Part shown: positions 474-41,659 of the stretch, one piece after another
Layout: every line of letters starts with the position of its first letter
How positions within the stretch are numbered: position 1 is the first letter of the stretch
DNA from: Richelia intracellularis
Lineage (GTDB): Bacteria > Cyanobacteriota > Cyanobacteriia > Cyanobacteriales > Nostocaceae
Length of the DNA: 42,682 nt
NCBI GenBank assembly: GCA_000613065.1
Contig: CBZS010000520.1
Location: 1-42,682, forward strand
Reading direction: 5' to 3'
The notes under the pieces: generated by a model
Seen by the model: only the letters and a program-made list of their open reading frames with translations
Databases searched by the model: none
Told to the model about the DNA's origin: nothing
Translations under genes and position numbers: made by a program

Positions 474-564
474 GGCGTTGCATAAGTGCGGGATGACTTA
501 GCGTTTGAAACCATTGATAAATCGTTGAAAATTTAGTAAGAACATCCCCGGATTCAGCAACGCC
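474..564 (+). repeat. MITE-1 copy 1 (91 bp, GGCGTTGC inverted ends)
   Basis: Starts GGCGTTGCATAAGTGCGGGA and ends CAGCAACGCC, the same length and ends as the copies at 12569, 17790, 19679, 20938, 37465 and 41569. The flanking 8-mers differ (AGAATGTG and TAATTTTT), so any target duplication has decayed. It lies downstream of clpB. Confidence 0.85.
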
Positions 565-3367: not shown

Positions 3368-3758
3368 ATGGACGAATTTATGCAAGCCGCGAACGCAGAC
3401 GGAGAACAAGCTAGACTAACGGGTGGTATACCCATTGGTTCCGTACTTGTCAAGGAAGGCAAGATTATCGGCAGAGGACACAAAAAGCGCGTCCAAGATG
3501 GCGATCCTATCACCCATGCGGAAATCGATTGCGTCCGTAATGCTGGTAGAATCAGGAACTAACAAGGTACAATACTTTACTCCACACTGATGGCATATTA
3601 TATGTGTGCAGGAGCTGTAGTGCAGTTTGGCATCAAAAAAGTACTTGCTGAGTAATCAGCTAATTTACCCGGTACAAAGGAGTTTATGGAATCCCATGAT
3701 GTGGAGGTAGTTGATTTAGATTTGGATGAATGTAAGCAGATGATGAGTGAATTTAGGC
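3368..3758 (+). pseudogene. Cytosine/nucleoside deaminase, dead copy
   Basis: One reading frame continues from ATG 3368 to about 3758 and matches the zinc deaminase family closest to yeast-type cytosine deaminase: GGIPIGSVLV, GRGHKKRVQDGDPITHAEID with the HAE zinc/proton-shuttle motif, then STLMAYYMCAGAVVQFGIKK and ESHDVEVVDLDLDECKQMM. Two in-frame stops (TAA at 3560 and TAA at 3653) break it. The zinc motif PCxxC has become AYYMC, losing one cysteine, and the last dozen or so codons are replaced by sequence resembling a MITE-1 end (GGCGTTGC at about 3758). AGGAG stands upstream of the start. In life it would have turned cytosine into uracil, a natural partner of the adjacent nucleoside hydrolase. 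Confidence 0.83.
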
Positions 3759-4078: not shown

Positions 4079-5091
4079 CAAGGTATGTTTTGGTCACAAG
4101 CACGAGAACTATTTGAACAGATAGTTAGTTGGTTAGACTCACACAGCATTTGTGGGTTAGAACACTCCCACATAGAGAGTAAGTTACTTGAGAATAGATA
4201 CGAACTATTGACACGGTTGTTACAAACAAAGATATTTTGATAAACGCACTCAAGATGAAATAGAGGGAGAGTGTGCAGGCACAGACTCAGTAAACAGAAC
4301 ACACAAGAAAAAATTGTCGCGGAAATTGACCACATTATTTGGCACAGTAATCGCCAATAGAATCGGTTATGGAGGAAGAAAGATAAATACGCTATTTTCT
4401 TTGGATGGGGAGTTTAATCTACCAGCACAGCAATATTCTCATGGACTAAGACAGGGATATTATCCATGTGATTGAGTTTTTGTGGAAAGCTGCATTTGTC
4501 TTTTATTATCAGACTTCAACACAGGCAGAAGCTTGGAAGAGCAAACGTTTACAGCTTATCCTTGAAGGGAAATCAAGTTCAGTTGCCACAGGTATGCGCC
4601 TGAGTGCGACTTTACCCAAACTGACCCCCCAAGAACGTAAACCCGTGGATACCTGTGCTAGGTATTTACTTAACAATACGAAATACTTCATACCATTATT
4701 ATGTGAAGCTGCACAGAATTAATGGGGAAAAAGCCTTATATATTGGTACTAGTTATATGGCTATTCACATAAAAATGGTATCAAATATAATGATTACTTA
4801 AAAGCTGGATTCCTCATGGCCACGGGGGTGATTGAGGGTGCTTGTTGGCACCTAATTAAAGACAGGATGGATATCACTGGGGCTAGATGGACCATGAGGG
4901 GTGCTGAGGCTGTTTTTCCCCTGGGTTCTTCATACATCAGTGGCGATTGGGATGATTATTGGCAGTTTCGTCTACAACAAGAACATAAACCCAATCACCT
5001 GGCTTTCTACTCTAGTGGTATTCCTTTGATGAAGCAAGTTATCAAAGCTCGTTGTTCTACTACCCCTCCACCTCTTCCAATACCTGTCTAA
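4079..5091 (+). pseudogene. ISKra4-family transposase, broken
   Basis: The N-terminal part reads GMFWSQARELFEQIVSWLD, then LEHSHIESKLLENRYELLTR with a stop after TKIF, then frame changes, then GEFNLPAQQYSHGLRQGYYP and a TGA. The open block 4468-4722 (IEFLWKAAFVFYYQTSTQAE) is cut by MITE-2. The last block, 4816-5091 (MATGVIEGACWHLIKDRMDI, then GARWTMRGAEAVFPLGSSYI), is the conserved C-terminal region with the final catalytic glutamate in VIEGA. At least four lesions are visible, so it is inactive. Confidence 0.82.
4691..4780 (+). repeat. MITE-2 copy 2 (90 bp) inside ISKra4 copy 2
   Basis: Begins TACCATTATTATGTGAAGCT and ends TCACATAAAAATGGTA. The flanking TCA triplets at 4688-4690 and 4781-4783 form the target duplication. 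The empty target in ISKra4 copy 3 reads AATACCTCAAATATGAC, which confirms the ends and the 3-bp duplication. Confidence 0.9.
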
Positions 5092-12501: not shown

Positions 12502-12863
12502 GTAAAATTAATTACTGATTTAAATAAAATCAGGGAAGGTAAATTCAAAAAGTGTAACAGCTAGTTTTGGCGTTGCATAACTGCGGGATGAATTAGCGTT
12601 TGAAACCATTGAAAAATCGTTGAAAATTTAGTGAAATCATCCCCTGATTCAGCAACGCCCTAGTTTTTTTTCACCTTCCTTAGTAGACAATTTAACGGAT
12701 ATCGTTTTGAATAGATAAAGCACATAGCAGTGGTTTAACAAGTAGTCAATACCAACATATATATTTGAATATTATATAAAGAGCATTAGGGCATTAAGTT
12801 TATGAGTGTGAGAGAGTCTAAATTATCTGTTGTATTGATGTCGCAGTCTAGAGGCAAGGGACG
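12502..12863. other. Intergenic region with one MITE-1
   Basis: Apart from the MITE-1 copy at 12569-12659 no gene is seen. The stretch 12700-12863 is A+T rich and presumably carries the promoter of the following unknown gene. Confidence 0.5.
12569..12659 (+). repeat. MITE-1 copy 2 (91 bp) with perfect 8-bp duplication
   Basis: Starts GGCGTTGCATAACTGCGGGA and ends TTCAGCAACGCC. CTAGTTTT flanks it on both sides (12561-12568 and 12660-12667). This copy fixes the element boundaries and the duplication length. Confidence 0.93.
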
Positions 12864-15868: not shown

Positions 15869-16213
15869 CCTCAGATCTTATTCATAATTGTCAAAACTAT
15901 AACAGTAACTTGAAATGAATGCATAAAAGAAAAGGATAAATACTAGAAATTCAGCTAATCACTCTATTTTGCAACTCCGTTCTCGTTTGCTAAGGCTTGA
16001 ATAGAGCAAATTGGAGTATAGATTAATTTGATCTTTCCTCGCATTGCGCTTAAAGGTTAAGACTAATTGAACTTATTCTATCTAATACAAAAATGCCTAT
16101 GTTTTCAATTCACATATGTTGGAAAATATTGATTTTTCATTTTTTATTTGGGCGTTGCATAATAGGGAGATAGATTCTAATTGAGAATTCGGAATTAAAG
16201 TATAGCAAGCTTT
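15869..16213. other. Intergenic, A+T rich, with a MITE-1 fragment
   Basis: No open frame of note. A truncated MITE-1 end, GGCGTTGCATAA, is found at 16151-16162; the rest of that copy is missing. Confidence 0.5.
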
Positions 16214-17271: not shown

Positions 17272-18711
17272 CTACCTAACTTGATCTAACTTTTCTTCCT
17301 GTGACTCAAGAGAATCACTTTCTGCAAGGGGAGCTACCCATACCTTATCTACCCGATTCCTGTCCATATCCATAACCTCAAACCGCATTTCTTGCCATTG
17401 AAATGATTCTGCCGCTGCAGGTATGCGACCAAAATTGGTAATAATAAAACCACCTAAAGTGTGATAGCTCTCTTTCTCTTCCTCTGGTAACTTGGTAAGT
17501 TTAAACAACTGTAAAAACTGATCTACTGCTAACATTCCATCCAGTAGCCAAGAACCATCTTCCCGTTGTACTCCTTGAGGTTCCTCATTCTCGTCAGCAT
17601 CAGGAAGATCCCCTACAATTTCAATCATCACATCATTTAGAGTGACTAATCTTTGAATCACCCCATATTCATCCACAATAAAAGCCATATGCCTCAGGGT
17701 TTGTTTAAATACCTCTAATACTTTTAACCCATGGGTATTTTCTGGTATAAGGACTGATTGTCGCAGACCAACTGTTAAGTCAAAATTTTGGCGTTGCATA
17801 AGTGCGGGATGAATTAGCGTTTGAAACCATTGAAAAATCGTTGAAAATTTAGTTAAATCATCCCCTGATTCTGCAATGTCAAAATTTTGACCGTAAAGAC
17901 TACGTTCCAAGAAATCCGTAACAGGAACAATCCCCACAACATTGTCTAATTCTTCCTGACACACTGGATACGGGGAATAGCGATTCTCTATAATCTTTTG
18001 ACGATTTTTGTCTGGGGAATCTTCCAAATTTAACCAAACAATATCTAAACTCGGTGTCAGAAATGAGCTAATAGGGCGATCGCCTAAAGGAAATACCCGC
18101 TCCACCATATCCTGTTCTGCAGCTTCAAATGTACCCTCTTCCGTTCCTTGTTCGATTAATACCCGAATTTTTTCTTCTGTAATCTGTGGTCCAGCGGCAG
18201 CTTTAATCCCTAAGACCCTGAGAATGAATACAGTGGAAATACTTAGTATATTGACAATGGAAGCACTAATTATAGATAGCTGTTGCATAGGTATGTCAGC
18301 CATACCAGCAATAGGTTCAGGATGGTTTAATCCTAAGCGTTTAGGTACAAGTTCCCCGATGGTGAGGGTTAAATAAGTAATCAGCAGAATGGCAAGAACA
18401 TTTGCTAATCGTTGGGCACTATCTTGTTCTATATTAATTGCTTGAAAAATCGGGATTATCCTTTTAGACAGGGTACTCTCACCATAGGCACCAGAAAGAA
18501 TAGTTCGTAGGGTAATACCAATTTGTACAGTTCCCAAGAAGCGATTGGGAGCAGACGCTTTTAATGCGACTTTAGCCTTGGCATCTCCTTGTTCGGCTAT
18601 TTGCTGTAGTATCACCTTGCCTGCAGATACAATTGCCAACTCAGACATGACAAACAGAACATTTCCAAGGATGAGTAAGAAAATAATTAAGAGTTCGAGG
18701 GTTGGATGCAT
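17272..18711 (-). CDS. CNNM/CBS-domain membrane protein (HlyC/CorC family) with an in-frame MITE-1
   Basis: Chosen start 18711 (MHPTLELLIIFLLILGNVLF) puts the first membrane helix at the N-terminus as in the family; a longer frame begins at 18798. The order is a CNNM membrane domain with four hydrophobic segments (about 1-175), then a CBS pair, then a CorC_HlyC C-terminal domain (ending VMDMDRNRVDKVWVAPL). Members are thought to move or sense divalent cations such as Mg2+. Within the CBS region, 33 extra residues (about 275-307, containing AESGDDLTKFSTIFQWFQ) come from MITE-1 at 17790-17880 plus its 8-bp duplication; without it the sequence reads LYGQNFDLTVGLRQ. No stop or frameshift results, so a lengthened protein can be made. 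It leads the methyltransferase gene by 5 bp. Confidence 0.88.
   Translation of the reverse strand: MHPTLELLIIFLLILGNVLFVMSELAIVSAGKVILQQIAEQGDAKAKVALKASAPNRFLGTVQIGITLRTILSGAYGESTLSKRIIPIFQAINIEQDSAQRLANVLAILLITYLTLTIGELVPKRLGLNHPEPIAGMADIPMQQLSIISASIVNILSISTVFILRVLGIKAAAGPQITEEKIRVLIEQGTEEGTFEAAEQDMVERVFPLGDRPISSFLTPSLDIVWLNLEDSPDKNRQKIIENRYSPYPVCQEELDNVVGIVPVTDFLERSLYGQNFDIAESGDDLTKFSTIFQWFQTLIHPALMQRQNFDLTVGLRQSVLIPENTHGLKVLEVFKQTLRHMAFIVDEYGVIQRLVTLNDVMIEIVGDLPDADENEEPQGVQREDGSWLLDGMLAVDQFLQLFKLTKLPEEEKESYHTLGGFIITNFGRIPAAAESFQWQEMRFEVMDMDRNRVDKVWVAPLAESDSLESQEEKLDQVR
17790..17880 (-). repeat. MITE-1 copy 3, in frame inside the CNNM/CBS gene
   Basis: Reads GGCGTTGCATAAGTGCGGGA at the left and ends TCTGCAATGTC (decayed CAGCAACGCC). 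AAAATTTT flanks it at 17782-17789 and 17881-17888, an 8-bp duplication. 91 + 8 = 99 bp, 33 codons. Read on the gene's strand it is in the only one of its six frames that lacks stops. Confidence 0.9.
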
Positions 18712-18826
18712 TCTCAGGATTGCTGATATCAGCAGCAGACTGTCTTTAAGAGAATGTTTTAAAAAGTGGGAGGTATCATAAAAAAGCTCACAAGGCATAT
18801 GCTGATAATTATAGAAAACAGCACCC

Positions 18827-19628: not shown

Positions 19629-19973
19629 TTTGTAACTCACTTCGACTTTTAAAAGATCCTCTAAGTATAACTTTTTAGGGCATTGCATAAGTGCGGGATG
19701 AATTAGGGTTTGAAACCATTAAAAAATCCTTGAAAATTTAGTGAAATCATCCCCTGATTCAGCAACGCCCTTTTTAGTATTTAGTATCTTGGTTATGCAA
19801 GAGTCTAAATGCAGATAAAATAGTGAAATAAAAAATATTCTGTTACTTCGAAACAAAGCCTAAAGGCTAGCGTTCCCATAGCAGTTCCTAGGAAACATCG
19901 CTCTACAATAATCCACAACTACTGAGAATGGTGTGTTATAAATTTGGCATAAAAGAAGAAAATAGAGGAAGCA
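19629..19973. other. Intergenic region with one MITE-1
   Basis: Apart from the MITE-1 at 19679-19769 nothing coding is seen. The last 100 bp should hold the promoter of the VWA gene; GAGGAAGCA directly before ATG 19974 is a usable ribosome site. Confidence 0.5.
19679..19769 (+). repeat. MITE-1 copy 4 (91 bp) with perfect 8-bp duplication
   Basis: Begins GGCATTGCATAAGTGCGGGA and ends TTCAGCAACGCC. CTTTTTAG stands at 19671-19678 and again at 19770-19777. Confidence 0.92.
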
Positions 19974-20775: not shown

Positions 20776-20820
20776 GGCGTTGCTGAATCAAGGGATCAAT
20801 TAGCATTTGAAACCATTGAA
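20776..20820 (+). repeat. MITE-1 fragment
   Basis: GGCGTTGCTGAATCAAGGGA at the left, then ATTAGCATTTGAAACCATTG, and then unrelated sequence. About half of the element remains. It looks like the left arm of one orientation joined to the middle of the other. Confidence 0.65.
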
Positions 20821-20937: not shown

Positions 20938-21028
20938 CGCGTTGCTGAATCAGGGCATGATTTCACTAAATTTTCAACGATGTATGAATGGTTTCAAACC
21001 CAAATTCATCCCCTGATTCAGCAACCCC
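20938..21028 (-). repeat. MITE-1 copy 5 upstream of mfd, perfect 8-bp duplication
   Basis: Begins CGCGTTGCTGAATCAGGGCA and ends CAGCAACCCC. ACCAATAT is found at 20930-20937 and 21029-21036. Orientation is opposite to copies 1, 2 and 4. Confidence 0.92.
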
Positions 21029-21082: not shown

Positions 21083-24000
21083 ATGGCTTTTTCCTCCATT
21101 GTCCGTGCTTTGGGACGTTCATCTCTGTCAAATGAATTCCTTGCCAAGCTAGAACGAGAGCAAAGTATCCATTTAAATGGGGTTCCCCGGTTACCCAAGG
21201 GGTTGGTAGCTTCAGCTTTAGCCACTGCTGGGGAGAAAAATTTGTTTGTGGTTTGTCCGACTTTGGAAGAAGCTAGTCGCTCGACTTCTCTGTTAGAAGC
21301 CATGGGATGGAAAACTGTCCATTTTTACCCTACTTCTCAAGCTTCCCCCTACGAACCATTTGACCCAGAAATTGAGATGATTTGGGGACAAATGCAGGTT
21401 CTGGCAGATTTGGTACAGGAAGACGGGTTAACTAACTTAGCGATTGTGGCTACCCATGCAGCACTACAACTACACTTACCCCCAAAAGATGCGTTTATTT
21501 CCTTCTGTATGACTCTTAAACGGAGGAACGAATCTGATTTTGAAGTTTTTAGCCAACAAATGGCCCGTCTGGGTTACGAGCGAGTTTCCATGGTGGAAAT
21601 GGAAGGGCAATGGAGTCGTCGTGGGGATATTGTGGATGTGTTCCCTGTCTCTTCGGAGTTACCTGTGAGGTTGGAATGGTTTGGGGATGAAATTGAGCAA
21701 ATTCGCGAGTTTGACCCTTCTACCCAACGTTCGGCTTTGGATAAGATTGAGCAGTTAACTTTGACCCCCACTAGCTTTTCACCAATTTTAATGGCAGAGA
21801 TAGGGGATATATCAGCCATTGAGTCCTACTTGTCTACAGAAGAATTGGATACGTGGAAAAATAAGCAAATTTTGGAAGGAAGTCGCCGGTTTTTAGGGTT
21901 AGCTTTTGACAAACCGGCTTCCTTAATTGATTATTTACCAGAGAATACCCTAGTTGCCGTTGATGAACTAGAACAATGTCATGCCCATAGCGATCGCTGG
22001 GTGGAAAATGCCCAGGAGCAATGGGAAGTTATTGATAATGAGGGCAATACTTTACCTTGTATTCACCGGGTGCTGGATGATTGTTTAGGGAATTTCACAA
22101 GCTTTAAAACTATATACTTATCGGAGTTGGCAGAGGAAAATAATGGTACAAATTTAGCTAGTCGTTCCTTACCTGTAACTCCTCATGCTTTTGCCAAGAT
22201 TGCCGAAACATTAAGACAAGAACGCCAACGCAATTTTTCTGTTTGGATTATATCTGCACAACCTAGTCGCTCCGTATCTCTGTTGCAAGAACACGATTGT
22301 CCGGCTCAGTTTATCCCTAATCCCCGAGATTATCAAGCGATCGATAAGTTACAAATTAATCATACCCCGGTCGCTCTCAAATATTCTGGTTTGGCGGAGT
22401 TGGAAGGGTTTATTTTACCTACATTCCGTCTGCTTCTAATTACGGATAGAGAATTTTTCGGGCAGCATTCTTTAGTGACTCCGGGTTATATCCGCAAGCG
22501 TCGGAAAGCTGCTTCTAAACAAGTCGATCCGAATAAGTTGCGTCCTGGGGATTACGTGATTCACAGGAACCACGGTGTGGGGCAATTTATCAAGCTGGAA
22601 AGTTTAACTTTAAACTACGAAACCCGCGATTATTTGGTTCTTCAGTATGCCGATGGATTGTTACGGGTAGCAGCAGATCAAGTAGGTGCATTATCCCGGT
22701 TACGTTCTACCACATCCAAAGCACCCCAATTAAATAAAATGACGGGTAAGGTATGGGAAAATACCAAAAATAAAGTCCGTAAAGCCATTAAAAAATTGGC
22801 AGTGGACTTACTCAAATTATATGCAGCCCGTGCCAAAAGAGAAGGGTTTACCTACCCCGTAGATATGCCTTGGCAAGAGGAGATGGAAGAATCATTCCCC
22901 TATCAACCCACCACAGAACAACTGAAAGCCGTTCAGGATGTGAAGCGGGATATGGAAAGCGATCGCCCCATGGATCGGTTAGTATGTGGAGATGTGGGTT
23001 TTGGTAAAACTGAGGTGGCAATTCGAGCTATTTTCAAAGCCGTCACCGCAGGAAAACAGGTCGCATTACTTGCACCCACAACTATTCTTACCCAACAGCA
23101 CTACCACACCATTAAAGAACGGTTTGCCCCCTACCCCGTGCACGTTGGTTTGCTTAACCGCTTCCGCAGTGCCGAAGAACGGCGAGGAATTCAGAAAAGA
23201 TTGGCTTCTGGAGAATTAGATGTGGTGGTAGGCACTCACCAACTCTTAGGTAAAAGCGTCAGCTTCAAAGACTTGGGACTGTTGGTCGTAGACGAAGAAC
23301 AGCGATTTGGGGTGAACCAAAAAGAAAAAATAAAATCCCTGAAAACCCAGGTAGACGTACTCACCCTTTCCGCTACCCCCATTCCCCGCACCTTATATAT
23401 GTCCTTATCTGGGATTCGGGAAATCAGCTTAATTACTACCCCACCCCCATCCCGTCGTCCCATAAAAACCCACCTTTCTCCCATGATTTCCGAAACCATC
23501 CGCAGCGCTATTCGTCAAGAATTAGACCGGGGAGGACAAGTCTTTTACGTAGTTCCTCGAGTGGAAGGAATTGAAGAGAAATCCGCAAGGATTCGGGAAA
23601 TGATTCCTGGGGTAAAATTAGCGGTCGCTCACGGACAAATGGATCCAAGCGAGTTGGAATCGATTATGCTCACCTTTAGTAATGGGGGAGCAGATGTGTT
23701 AGTTTGTACCACCATTATTGAGTCTGGTTTGGATATTCCCCGGGTCAACACCATCTTAATTGAAGATGCCCATCGCTTTGGTTTATCACAGTTGTACCAA
23801 TTACGGGGGCGGGTCGGACGTGCTGGTATTCAAGCCCATGCTTGGTTATTTTACCCCCAACAGCGAGCATTATCTGATACTGCTAGAAAACGATTGCGGG
23901 CAATTCAAGAATTTACTCAACTCGGCTCCGGCTATCAACTGGCAATGCGGGACATGGAAATTCGTGGGGTGGGTAGCTTACTCGGTGCAGAGCAGTCAGG

Positions 24001-30162: not shown

Positions 30163-31045
30163 TGATGGCTGGACGTTTTGAAGGACTGAGTAATTTGGAG
30201 TGGTCTTTGTTTGAGGATATTTTTCCGAGTTTGAGGATATTTTTCCGAAACCGCCAGACAAACGCGAACGAAGAATGCCACATTCTTCATTTCCTTATGT
30301 ACTCAATAGCTTATACCAATTTTTTATGAAGTAGCATAGACCTAGTAGGTATATATAAGCTTTTTACCCCATTAATTCTGTGCAGTTTCACATAAGAATG
30401 GTATTACTGTATATATTGATTACAGGGTGTCGTTGGTGTGAGGTTCCAAAAGGAGAAATATGGGCATAAAAGAGCTCTGCACATCGATGGCTCAAACGTT
30501 GGCAGTTGGACGTGACCTTAGAGGCTTTACAATCAGGAATATTGGGGATTGGACAAGATAAAGGGTTAATAAACTGAAGTTATGGCGGGGTGGACGGGTC
30601 TTTTTCCCCCTGGAAAGGGCGGTGGTGATGGTGTTGCTTACGGTGGAAAAGTAAAGGGTATTTTAATACACACTCTTACTGAAGGCTGAGGAATGCCTTT
30701 ATCCAATAGCACCAGACCTGCCAATGGTAGTGAAAGAGATCAGGTGATACCACTTCTAGACAGTGTAAAGGTTAAGACCAACAAACGGGGTAGACCCCAT
30801 AAACCCCTGAAAGTGCTTGCTGCTGACAAAGGCTACGATTCTAAGGATAAGGGCACTGCTTTACCTAGACATGGTATTAGGCCGCAATGGGCCAAGCGGG
30901 TTTGGAAGAGAAACAAGAACAAGGCCAGACCCATTAAAATTTCCGTCCCAGGTTTTCAACAAGAACCTTGTTTCCCATGGTTAAAAAAAATATCGTCGTC
31001 TTGTTTGTTGTGAGATGGGAAAGAATTTCAGCTCGTTTTGATGTT
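30163..31045 (+). pseudogene. IS5-family transposase, copy B
   Basis: The start MAGRFEGLSNLEWSLFEDIF is followed by a tandem duplication, then KPPDKRERRMPHSSFPYVLN, then the MITE-2. The same C run as in copies A and C (30606-30610) marks a frame change between the segment with the first aspartate (VDG) and PGKGGGDGVAYGGK. The block 30693-31013 (VIPLLDSVKVKTNKRGRPHK, then VLAADKGYDSKDK) carries the second catalytic aspartate. It is inactive. Confidence 0.8.
30314..30403 (-). repeat. MITE-2 copy 3 (90 bp) inside IS5 copy B
   Basis: Begins TACCAATTTTTTATGAAGTA and ends TCACATAAGAATGGTA. TTA flanks it at 30311-30313 and 30404-30406. The uninterrupted sequence at this point is seen in the IS5 copies at 9172 and 36605. 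Confidence 0.87.
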
Positions 31046-37464: not shown

Positions 37465-37555
37465 GGTGTTGCTGAATCAGGGGATCATTTCACTAAAATT
37501 TCAATGATTTCTCAATGGTTTCAAATCCTAATTCATCCCGCACTTATGCAACGCC
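37465..37555 (-). repeat. MITE-1 copy 6 (91 bp)
   Basis: Begins GGTGTTGCTGAATCAGGGGA and ends TTATGCAACGCC. The flanks are CAGCTACC and CGGCTACC, a 7 of 8 match, so a slightly decayed 8-bp duplication. Confidence 0.88.
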
Positions 37556-41568: not shown

Positions 41569-41659
41569 GGCGTTGTTGAATCAGGGTATGAATTAGGGTT
41601 TGAAGCCATTGAAAAATCATTGAAAATTTAGTGAAATCATCCCCTGATTCAACAACGCC
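41569..41659 (+). repeat. MITE-1 copy 7 (91 bp)
   Basis: Begins GGCGTTGTTGAATCAGGGTA and ends TTCAACAACGCC. The flanks are AAATATAA and AAATATCA, 7 of 8 the same. On the minus strand its open frame (ESGDDFTKFSMIFQWLQTLI) extends into neighbouring sequence as a 67-codon frame, which is not a gene. Confidence 0.88.

Follow-up and report, generated by a model that had tools for sequence, protein, structure and literature searches.

MITEs in mcy genes were reportedly described by Fewer in 2011. The Nezha MITE of Anabaena and Nostoc (Zhou et al. 2008, cited in PMC10969869) is by its title a short non-autonomous inverted-repeat element of cyanobacteria, as is the element described here. For Anabaena sp. 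90, which belongs to a related genus, 147 MITEs were reported, some complete and some partial, with lengths of 77-541 bp; the authors found no insertion sequence (IS) with matching ends, and the table of named ISs holds no IS1-family entry, with 16 ISs left unassigned (PMC3542288). The MITE described here, in contrast, has an IS1 partner. A 187-bp MITE of Microcystis PCC 7806, present in 31-33 copies, has the ends GGCTCTTCG and a partner of the ISL3 family (PMC11448079). It resembles our element in having 8-bp duplications and a partner deduced from matching ends, and differs from it in the partner's family, the ends and the copy number. The IS1-family ISs of the Nostocales (NF033558; PF03400) have ends GGCGTTGCATAA..GGGATGAAT and 8-bp target duplications (TSDs), as the MITE does; their zinc-ribbon insA frame and insB frame overlap at an A8C run or, in some, form one fused frame, whereas the MITE is 91 bp long, has no gene and shares with them only the outer ~26 bp.

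The literature searched, which included excerpts of PMC3542288, PMC10969869, PMC11448079, PMC11412076 and PMC4369082, contained no description of a 91-bp IS1-linked MITE (an earlier one may exist under another name), and no occurrence of the 18-letter MITE end as text. As far as this search reached, the element is of a known kind and constitutes a new, abundant family; it is set beside Nezha and the Anabaena sp. 90 MITEs by description only.

Copies of the 91-bp element in the window

The window, that is, the whole stretch of 42,682 nucleotides of Richelia intracellularis DNA that was analysed, contains the following features:

474 to 564, plus strand: MITE copy, 91 bp; TSD not recognisable (3/8)
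12561 to 12568, no strand: left TSD copy of the MITE at 12569, CTAGTTTT
12569 to 12659, plus strand: MITE copy, 91 bp, exact 8-bp TSD CTAGTTTT
12660 to 12667, no strand: right TSD copy of the MITE at 12569, CTAGTTTT
16151 to 16171, plus strand: IS1-end fragment, 21 bp, 90% identical to the left end of the 755-bp IS1
17272 to 18798, minus strand: ORF of 508 aa with CNNM, CBS and CorC_HlyC domains, reading through the MITE at 17790
17790 to 17880, plus strand: MITE copy, 91 bp, exact TSD AAAATTTT, in frame within the CNNM/CorC ORF
19679 to 19769, plus strand: MITE copy, 91 bp, exact TSD CTTTTTAG
20776 to 20819, plus strand: truncated MITE, positions 1-44, 82% identity
20938 to 21028, minus strand: MITE copy, 91 bp, exact TSD ACCAATAT
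37465 to 37555, minus strand: MITE copy, 91 bp, TSD 7/8
41569 to 41659, plus strand: MITE copy, 91 bp, TSD 7/8; its two outer arms are TGAATCAGG-type

A sequence-only reading of this DNA had proposed seven copies, four exact 8-bp duplications and two further ones matching at 7 of 8 positions. All seven were found at the starts that it gave, each exactly 91 bp long, and the duplications were as claimed, the two imperfect ones belonging to the copies at 37465 and 41569. The three fragments that it listed fared differently: that at 20776 is a real piece of the MITE, that at 16151 is real but matches the left end of IS1 over 21 bp and is therefore better named an IS1-end fragment, and that at 3758 was dropped, as blastn (E <= 0.05) matched neither the MITE nor IS1 there, although the 8-mer GGCGTTGC is present. 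The statement that the window holds no full-length IS with these ends agrees with our finding that the IS1 consensus matches the window only over 21-26 bp.

The copy at 12569 is separated by 67 bp from the end of the trpA ORF (12501), and the copy at 20938 lies 54 bp before an mfd-like ORF that begins at 21083 (UvrB-interaction, CarD/TRCF, DEAD and TRCF domains). A search of the window against Rfam gave no match at gathering level. Another short inverted-repeat sequence (ATACCATTATTATGTGAA...) is present at 1016-1114, 4683-4781 and 30306-30404 of the window, at the first two of these sites inside longer repeated, perhaps IS, DNA.

Abundance and structure of the family

The genome-wide search that the sequence-only reading had named as a check revealed a larger family than it had reported. 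In the assembly (5.49 Mb, 857 contigs), a two-arm pattern with 91-bp spacing and at most three mismatches occurred at 527 sites, and its backwards-read control at none; since this pattern is its own reverse complement, every site shows up on both strands. By arithmetic this amounts to one site per 10.4 kb, or about 0.9% of the genome. The element thus has the attributes of a MITE: it is short, lacks a transposase gene and exists in many copies. Among 150 distinct arm pairs lying 50-160 bp apart in the stretches examined, 144 measured 91 bp; the remainder were of 102 bp (two), 113 bp (one), 137 bp (two) and 139 bp (one). Each 137-bp pair consists of a MITE with an IS1 end attached, and the three pairs of 137 and 139 bp, being chance or MITE-IS1 pairings, were not counted as single elements.

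The 8-bp TSD was exact in 62 of the 144 91-bp copies and matched at six or more positions in 98, while repeats of any other length from 4 to 12 bp were exact in none or one of the 144. The middle of the duplicated 8-mers is rich in A and T. Divergence was not significantly lower in copies with an exact TSD than in those without (p 0.16), which counts against the explanation that we prefer below. Five groups of sequence-identical copies were present at different sites, some of which could be segmental duplicates.

Each copy is laid out as two imperfect ~23-bp terminal inverted repeats flanking a 45-bp core. In the 144 copies, arm positions 1-8, 11-12 and 17-23 were complementary in 85-100%, and positions 9-10 and 13-16 in 32-35%, which is low because two arm types exist; these types combine nearly independently. 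Conversion of one arm by the other was considered and rejected (five mirrored rare changes versus 1.6 expected, and 164 changes in one arm only). The core has an 11-bp quasi-repeat (its lag-11 match was reached by 0 of 2000 shuffles, and by 11 of 1000 when any lag from 3 to 19 was allowed), which suggests how the two 102-bp copies and the one 113-bp copy could simply have arisen (+11, +11 and +22). DNA bending was rejected as the cause of the fixed length, since a wedge model puts the consensus straighter than most shuffles. The rare variants have an unusual spectrum: C>G transversions were second only to C>T, with 87 of 331 in the MITEs and 120 of 578 in IS1.

Insertion sites in relatives

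The sequence-only reading had held that the same copies at orthologous loci of many distant species would mark old fixed repeats. We compared two sites, that next to trpA and that in the CNNM/CorC gene, and both are empty in relatives; together with the TSDs, this supports a mobile MITE family that duplicates 8 bp of its target. No MITE copy lay within 600 bp downstream of trpA in any of 80 loci. Just two of these, from Calothrix MAGs (L153 and L154), aligned along the full length of the joined flank (82% and 83%), and in these two nearest relatives at the site the sequence is uninterrupted and the target single-copy. The nearest TrpA loci are those of the Calothrix MAGs MO_167.B12 and MO_192.B10 (82% and 81%). 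At L153, 1898 bp past the end of trpA, there is an element of 132 bp whose outer arms are similar but whose core differs.

The copy at 17790 adds 33 in-frame codons to the CNNM/CorC gene. Some match to this protein was found in all 60 genomes searched (own included), and in the 29 orthologous loci compared, all from other genomes, the alignment showed in every case one gap of exactly 33 residues at the insertion. This copy is therefore a natural example of a mobile element that lengthens a conserved transporter-type protein by 33 residues with the frame unbroken.

An IS1-family partner

The sequence-only reading had suggested a search for an IS that has GGCGTTGC ends and is flanked by 8-bp duplications. 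Such an IS exists elsewhere in the genome and belongs to the IS1 family. The genome has 53 PF03400 matches, fragments included, and from their flanks we derived an IS1 of 755 bp that starts with GGCGTTGCATAATAGAGGGATGAATT and whose end, reverse-complemented, reads GGCGTTGCATATTTGCGGGATGAATC. Among 23 candidates of 740-770 bp, the TSD was exact in eight and matched at 7/8 in four more; one candidate (L042) is a truncated IS1 adjoining a MITE. The IS1 carries an insA-like frame, an A8C run and then insB, and in some relatives the frame is fused; an intact relative matched NF033558 'IS1 family transposase' with an E of 1.1e-79. The DDE domain, zinc ribbon and frameshifted or fused frame of the IS1 family were recognised from PF03400 in the genome, from PF03400 and NF033558 on the relative L282 and from A8C or A9C runs.

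The left end of the MITE is identical to the two IS1 ends at 23 of 25 and 23 of 26 positions, and the two elements agree in ends and TSD length, as a type I MITE does with its IS partner. The MITE core had no match to the IS1 sequences compared, and likeness to the consensus stops after ~26 bp. Judged from these features, the element would work like an IS1 MITE, while descent of its core from IS1 by internal deletion finds no support in the comparison. In relatives, the IS1 right ends occur in two forms that resemble both MITE arm types, with the TGAAT form in 6 of 29 loci.

We scanned 787 kb, comprising the window and 40 stretches from contigs already known to bear the elements. Pairs of GGCGTTGC ends with a TSD of at least 7/8 were 35 bp (one), 91 bp (68), 750-760 bp (five, all IS1), 800 bp (one) and 854 bp (one) long. 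Of 257 arms, 209 belonged to 91-bp elements and 34 were IS1 ends; the 14 others included six in 102- or 113-bp copies and two truncated where a stretch ended. With the arms accounted for in this way, the sample gave no sign of a further IS with such ends. The 35-bp element (L124:3663-3697) is palindromic, has a 7/8 duplication and may be an even shorter derivative; L124:2105 has another, degenerate one.

The 800-bp element is a hybrid, in which half a MITE with its left end is followed by IS1 up to the right end, with AATAAAAA exact on both sides. The simplest source of this TSD would be transposition that used one MITE end and one IS1 end, and we regard the hybrid as the best hint of one transposase for both elements; against this, it is a single case, and an A-rich TSD could match by luck. 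The two elements are also nested in each other. Five loci have IS1 inserted in the centre of the MITE. The reverse, a MITE inside IS1, occurs in five loci at position 717-720 and once each at positions 569 and 638. Both orientations occur at both hot spots, and some of the nested loci may be one composite that was copied.

A common amber codon in the IS1 copies

In all 42 distinct IS1 copies of the genome that span it, the codon at 199-201 of the 755-bp IS1 is TAG (for example, L046:1334-1336). This count leaves out nine of the 53 PF03400 matches that stop short of the codon, and counts once both L090, which was listed twice, and L334, a duplicate contig of L084; among the 52 loci, no pair other than L334/L084 had both flanks in common. 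In 29 relatives, the same codon encodes Tyr in 27, and is TAA in one and TAG in one. An intact IS1 transposase was thus not found in the assembly, which counts against our preferred explanation. The copies displayed no sign of purifying selection (omega-like values of 1.26, 2.12 and 1.64, with 12, 25 and 64 new stops, in three segments). It would appear that IS1 spread while its frame was already dead: the amber codon in every copy that spans it implies that the amber-bearing IS1 itself was multiplied, most simply with transposase supplied in trans.

Distribution in the host family

Of 145 genomes of the family, the source genome among them, 110 had some match to the MITE, in many cases to its ends only. 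Of the 144 other genomes, at least 60 had a match with E <= 1e-11 and at least 49 a match over positions 1-91; these are lower bounds, as at most six candidates per genome were scored. Among the matches listed over positions 1-91, 75 of 89 were exactly 91 bp. One other genome of the same genus (88% complete) had no MITE match. Among 291 genomes drawn from the whole order, the whole-element matches among those listed all fell in the same family, and those listed outside it were partial (21-72 bp), mostly to one end. Relatives of the MITE were found on 12 plasmid records (Nostoc, Calothrix, Aulosira, Brasilonema, Anabaena and Tolypothrix), while phage records gave no MITE match and viral contigs no exact pattern match. 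The plasmid hosts, like the nearest TrpA loci, point to Nostocaceae as the family. Among nine copies taken from other genomes or plasmids, of which L054 and L057 are the same plasmid copy, the duplication was 7/8 or 8/8 in seven and 3/8 in two.

We also compared the occurrence of the MITE (E <= 1e-11, among the matches listed) with that of PF03400 in the 144 other genomes. Both were present in 42, the MITE only in 18, IS1 only in 37 and neither in 47 (odds ratio 3.0, p 0.002, uncorrected for kinship). The 18 of 60 MITE genomes with no PF03400 match speak against the explanation preferred here. The corresponding DNA-based comparison (53/7/55/29) is confounded because the MITE and IS1 have shared ends.

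Mechanism and alternative explanations

With the near-fixed length, the 8-bp TSDs, the empty sites, the shared ends, the one hybrid with a TSD and the nesting in both directions, we consider it very probable that the MITE is moved in trans by an IS1-family transposase that binds the shared ends, into AT-rich 8-bp targets. The element would be a non-autonomous DNA transposon with imperfect ~23-bp terminal inverted repeats, whose ends would be bound in trans by the transposase of an IS1-family IS with the same ends (755 bp here), and its insertion into an AT-rich 8-bp target would duplicate that target. We infer the IS1 transposase as the enzyme from sequence, and its action in trans from the amber stop in the insA-like frame of every codon-spanning IS1 copy. 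A very abundant bacterial MITE family now has a concrete candidate for its partner transposase family, across a family-wide set of genomes.

Could another, unseen transposase of a family with 8-bp TSDs move the MITE, its IS1-like ends having arisen by convergence? The IS6, ISL3, IS256 and IS1595 families make 8-bp TSDs too, the core is unrelated to IS1, and both the missing intact gene in the assembly and the 18 MITE genomes with no PF03400 match would fit. However, the 787-kb sample contained no full-length gene-sized element with such ends other than IS1, 25-26 bp of end and the TSD length are in common, and the hybrid has an exact TSD, so that we think this quite improbable. It is also unlikely that the 755-bp copies are active themselves, with their amber codon read through or suppressed. 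The TAG of all 42 copies would be expected then, and its 123 bases in 41 copies carry no change, versus ~3.8 expected by arithmetic at the mean rate (the local rate is lower); against it stand the lack of visible purifying selection and the incomplete set of 35 tRNA genes detected, among which a CUA anticodon does not occur.

An old fixed palindromic repeat, such as a REP-like sequence or a regulatory hairpin, would account for the hairpin potential seen when three copies were folded (z -4.1 to -8.7) and for the MITE relatives throughout the family. REP and REPIN sequences are not known to make a target duplication, whereas the MITE has exact 8-bp TSDs; the orthologous sites are empty, which refutes a fixed repeat at both sites examined, and the other genome of the genus has no match. 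We give such a repeat almost no credence. The length could also be kept since 91 + 8 = 99 bp adds 33 in-frame codons, in a coding element like the Rickettsia palindromic elements. The copy at 17790 behaves exactly so, and one reverse frame lacks a stop in 85 of 144 copies. Yet only 25 of 98 TSD-supported copies lie inside an ORF of at least 100 aa, compared to 863 of 1500 random and 723 of 1500 AT-matched positions, so ORFs are avoided; of these 25, 22 break the ORF and three leave it open, close to what one open frame in six would give by arithmetic. With ORFs avoided and no enrichment, selection for in-frame insertion as a general rule was rejected, and a coding element is very unlikely.

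Returning to movement in trans by an IS1-family transposase, the spreading IS1 master copy would already have had the amber stop, and both layers may on that account have depended on a foreign enzyme. We put at somewhat under an even chance a two-layer parasite system with no visible engine, in which the MITE and the 755-bp IS1 both multiplied on transposase from elsewhere, the intact enzyme having been lost, missed by the assembly or brought in on mobile DNA. The common amber codon makes it a testable question who moves a family of dead elements. A relative of the MITE is present on a Nostoc plasmid typed as conjugative.
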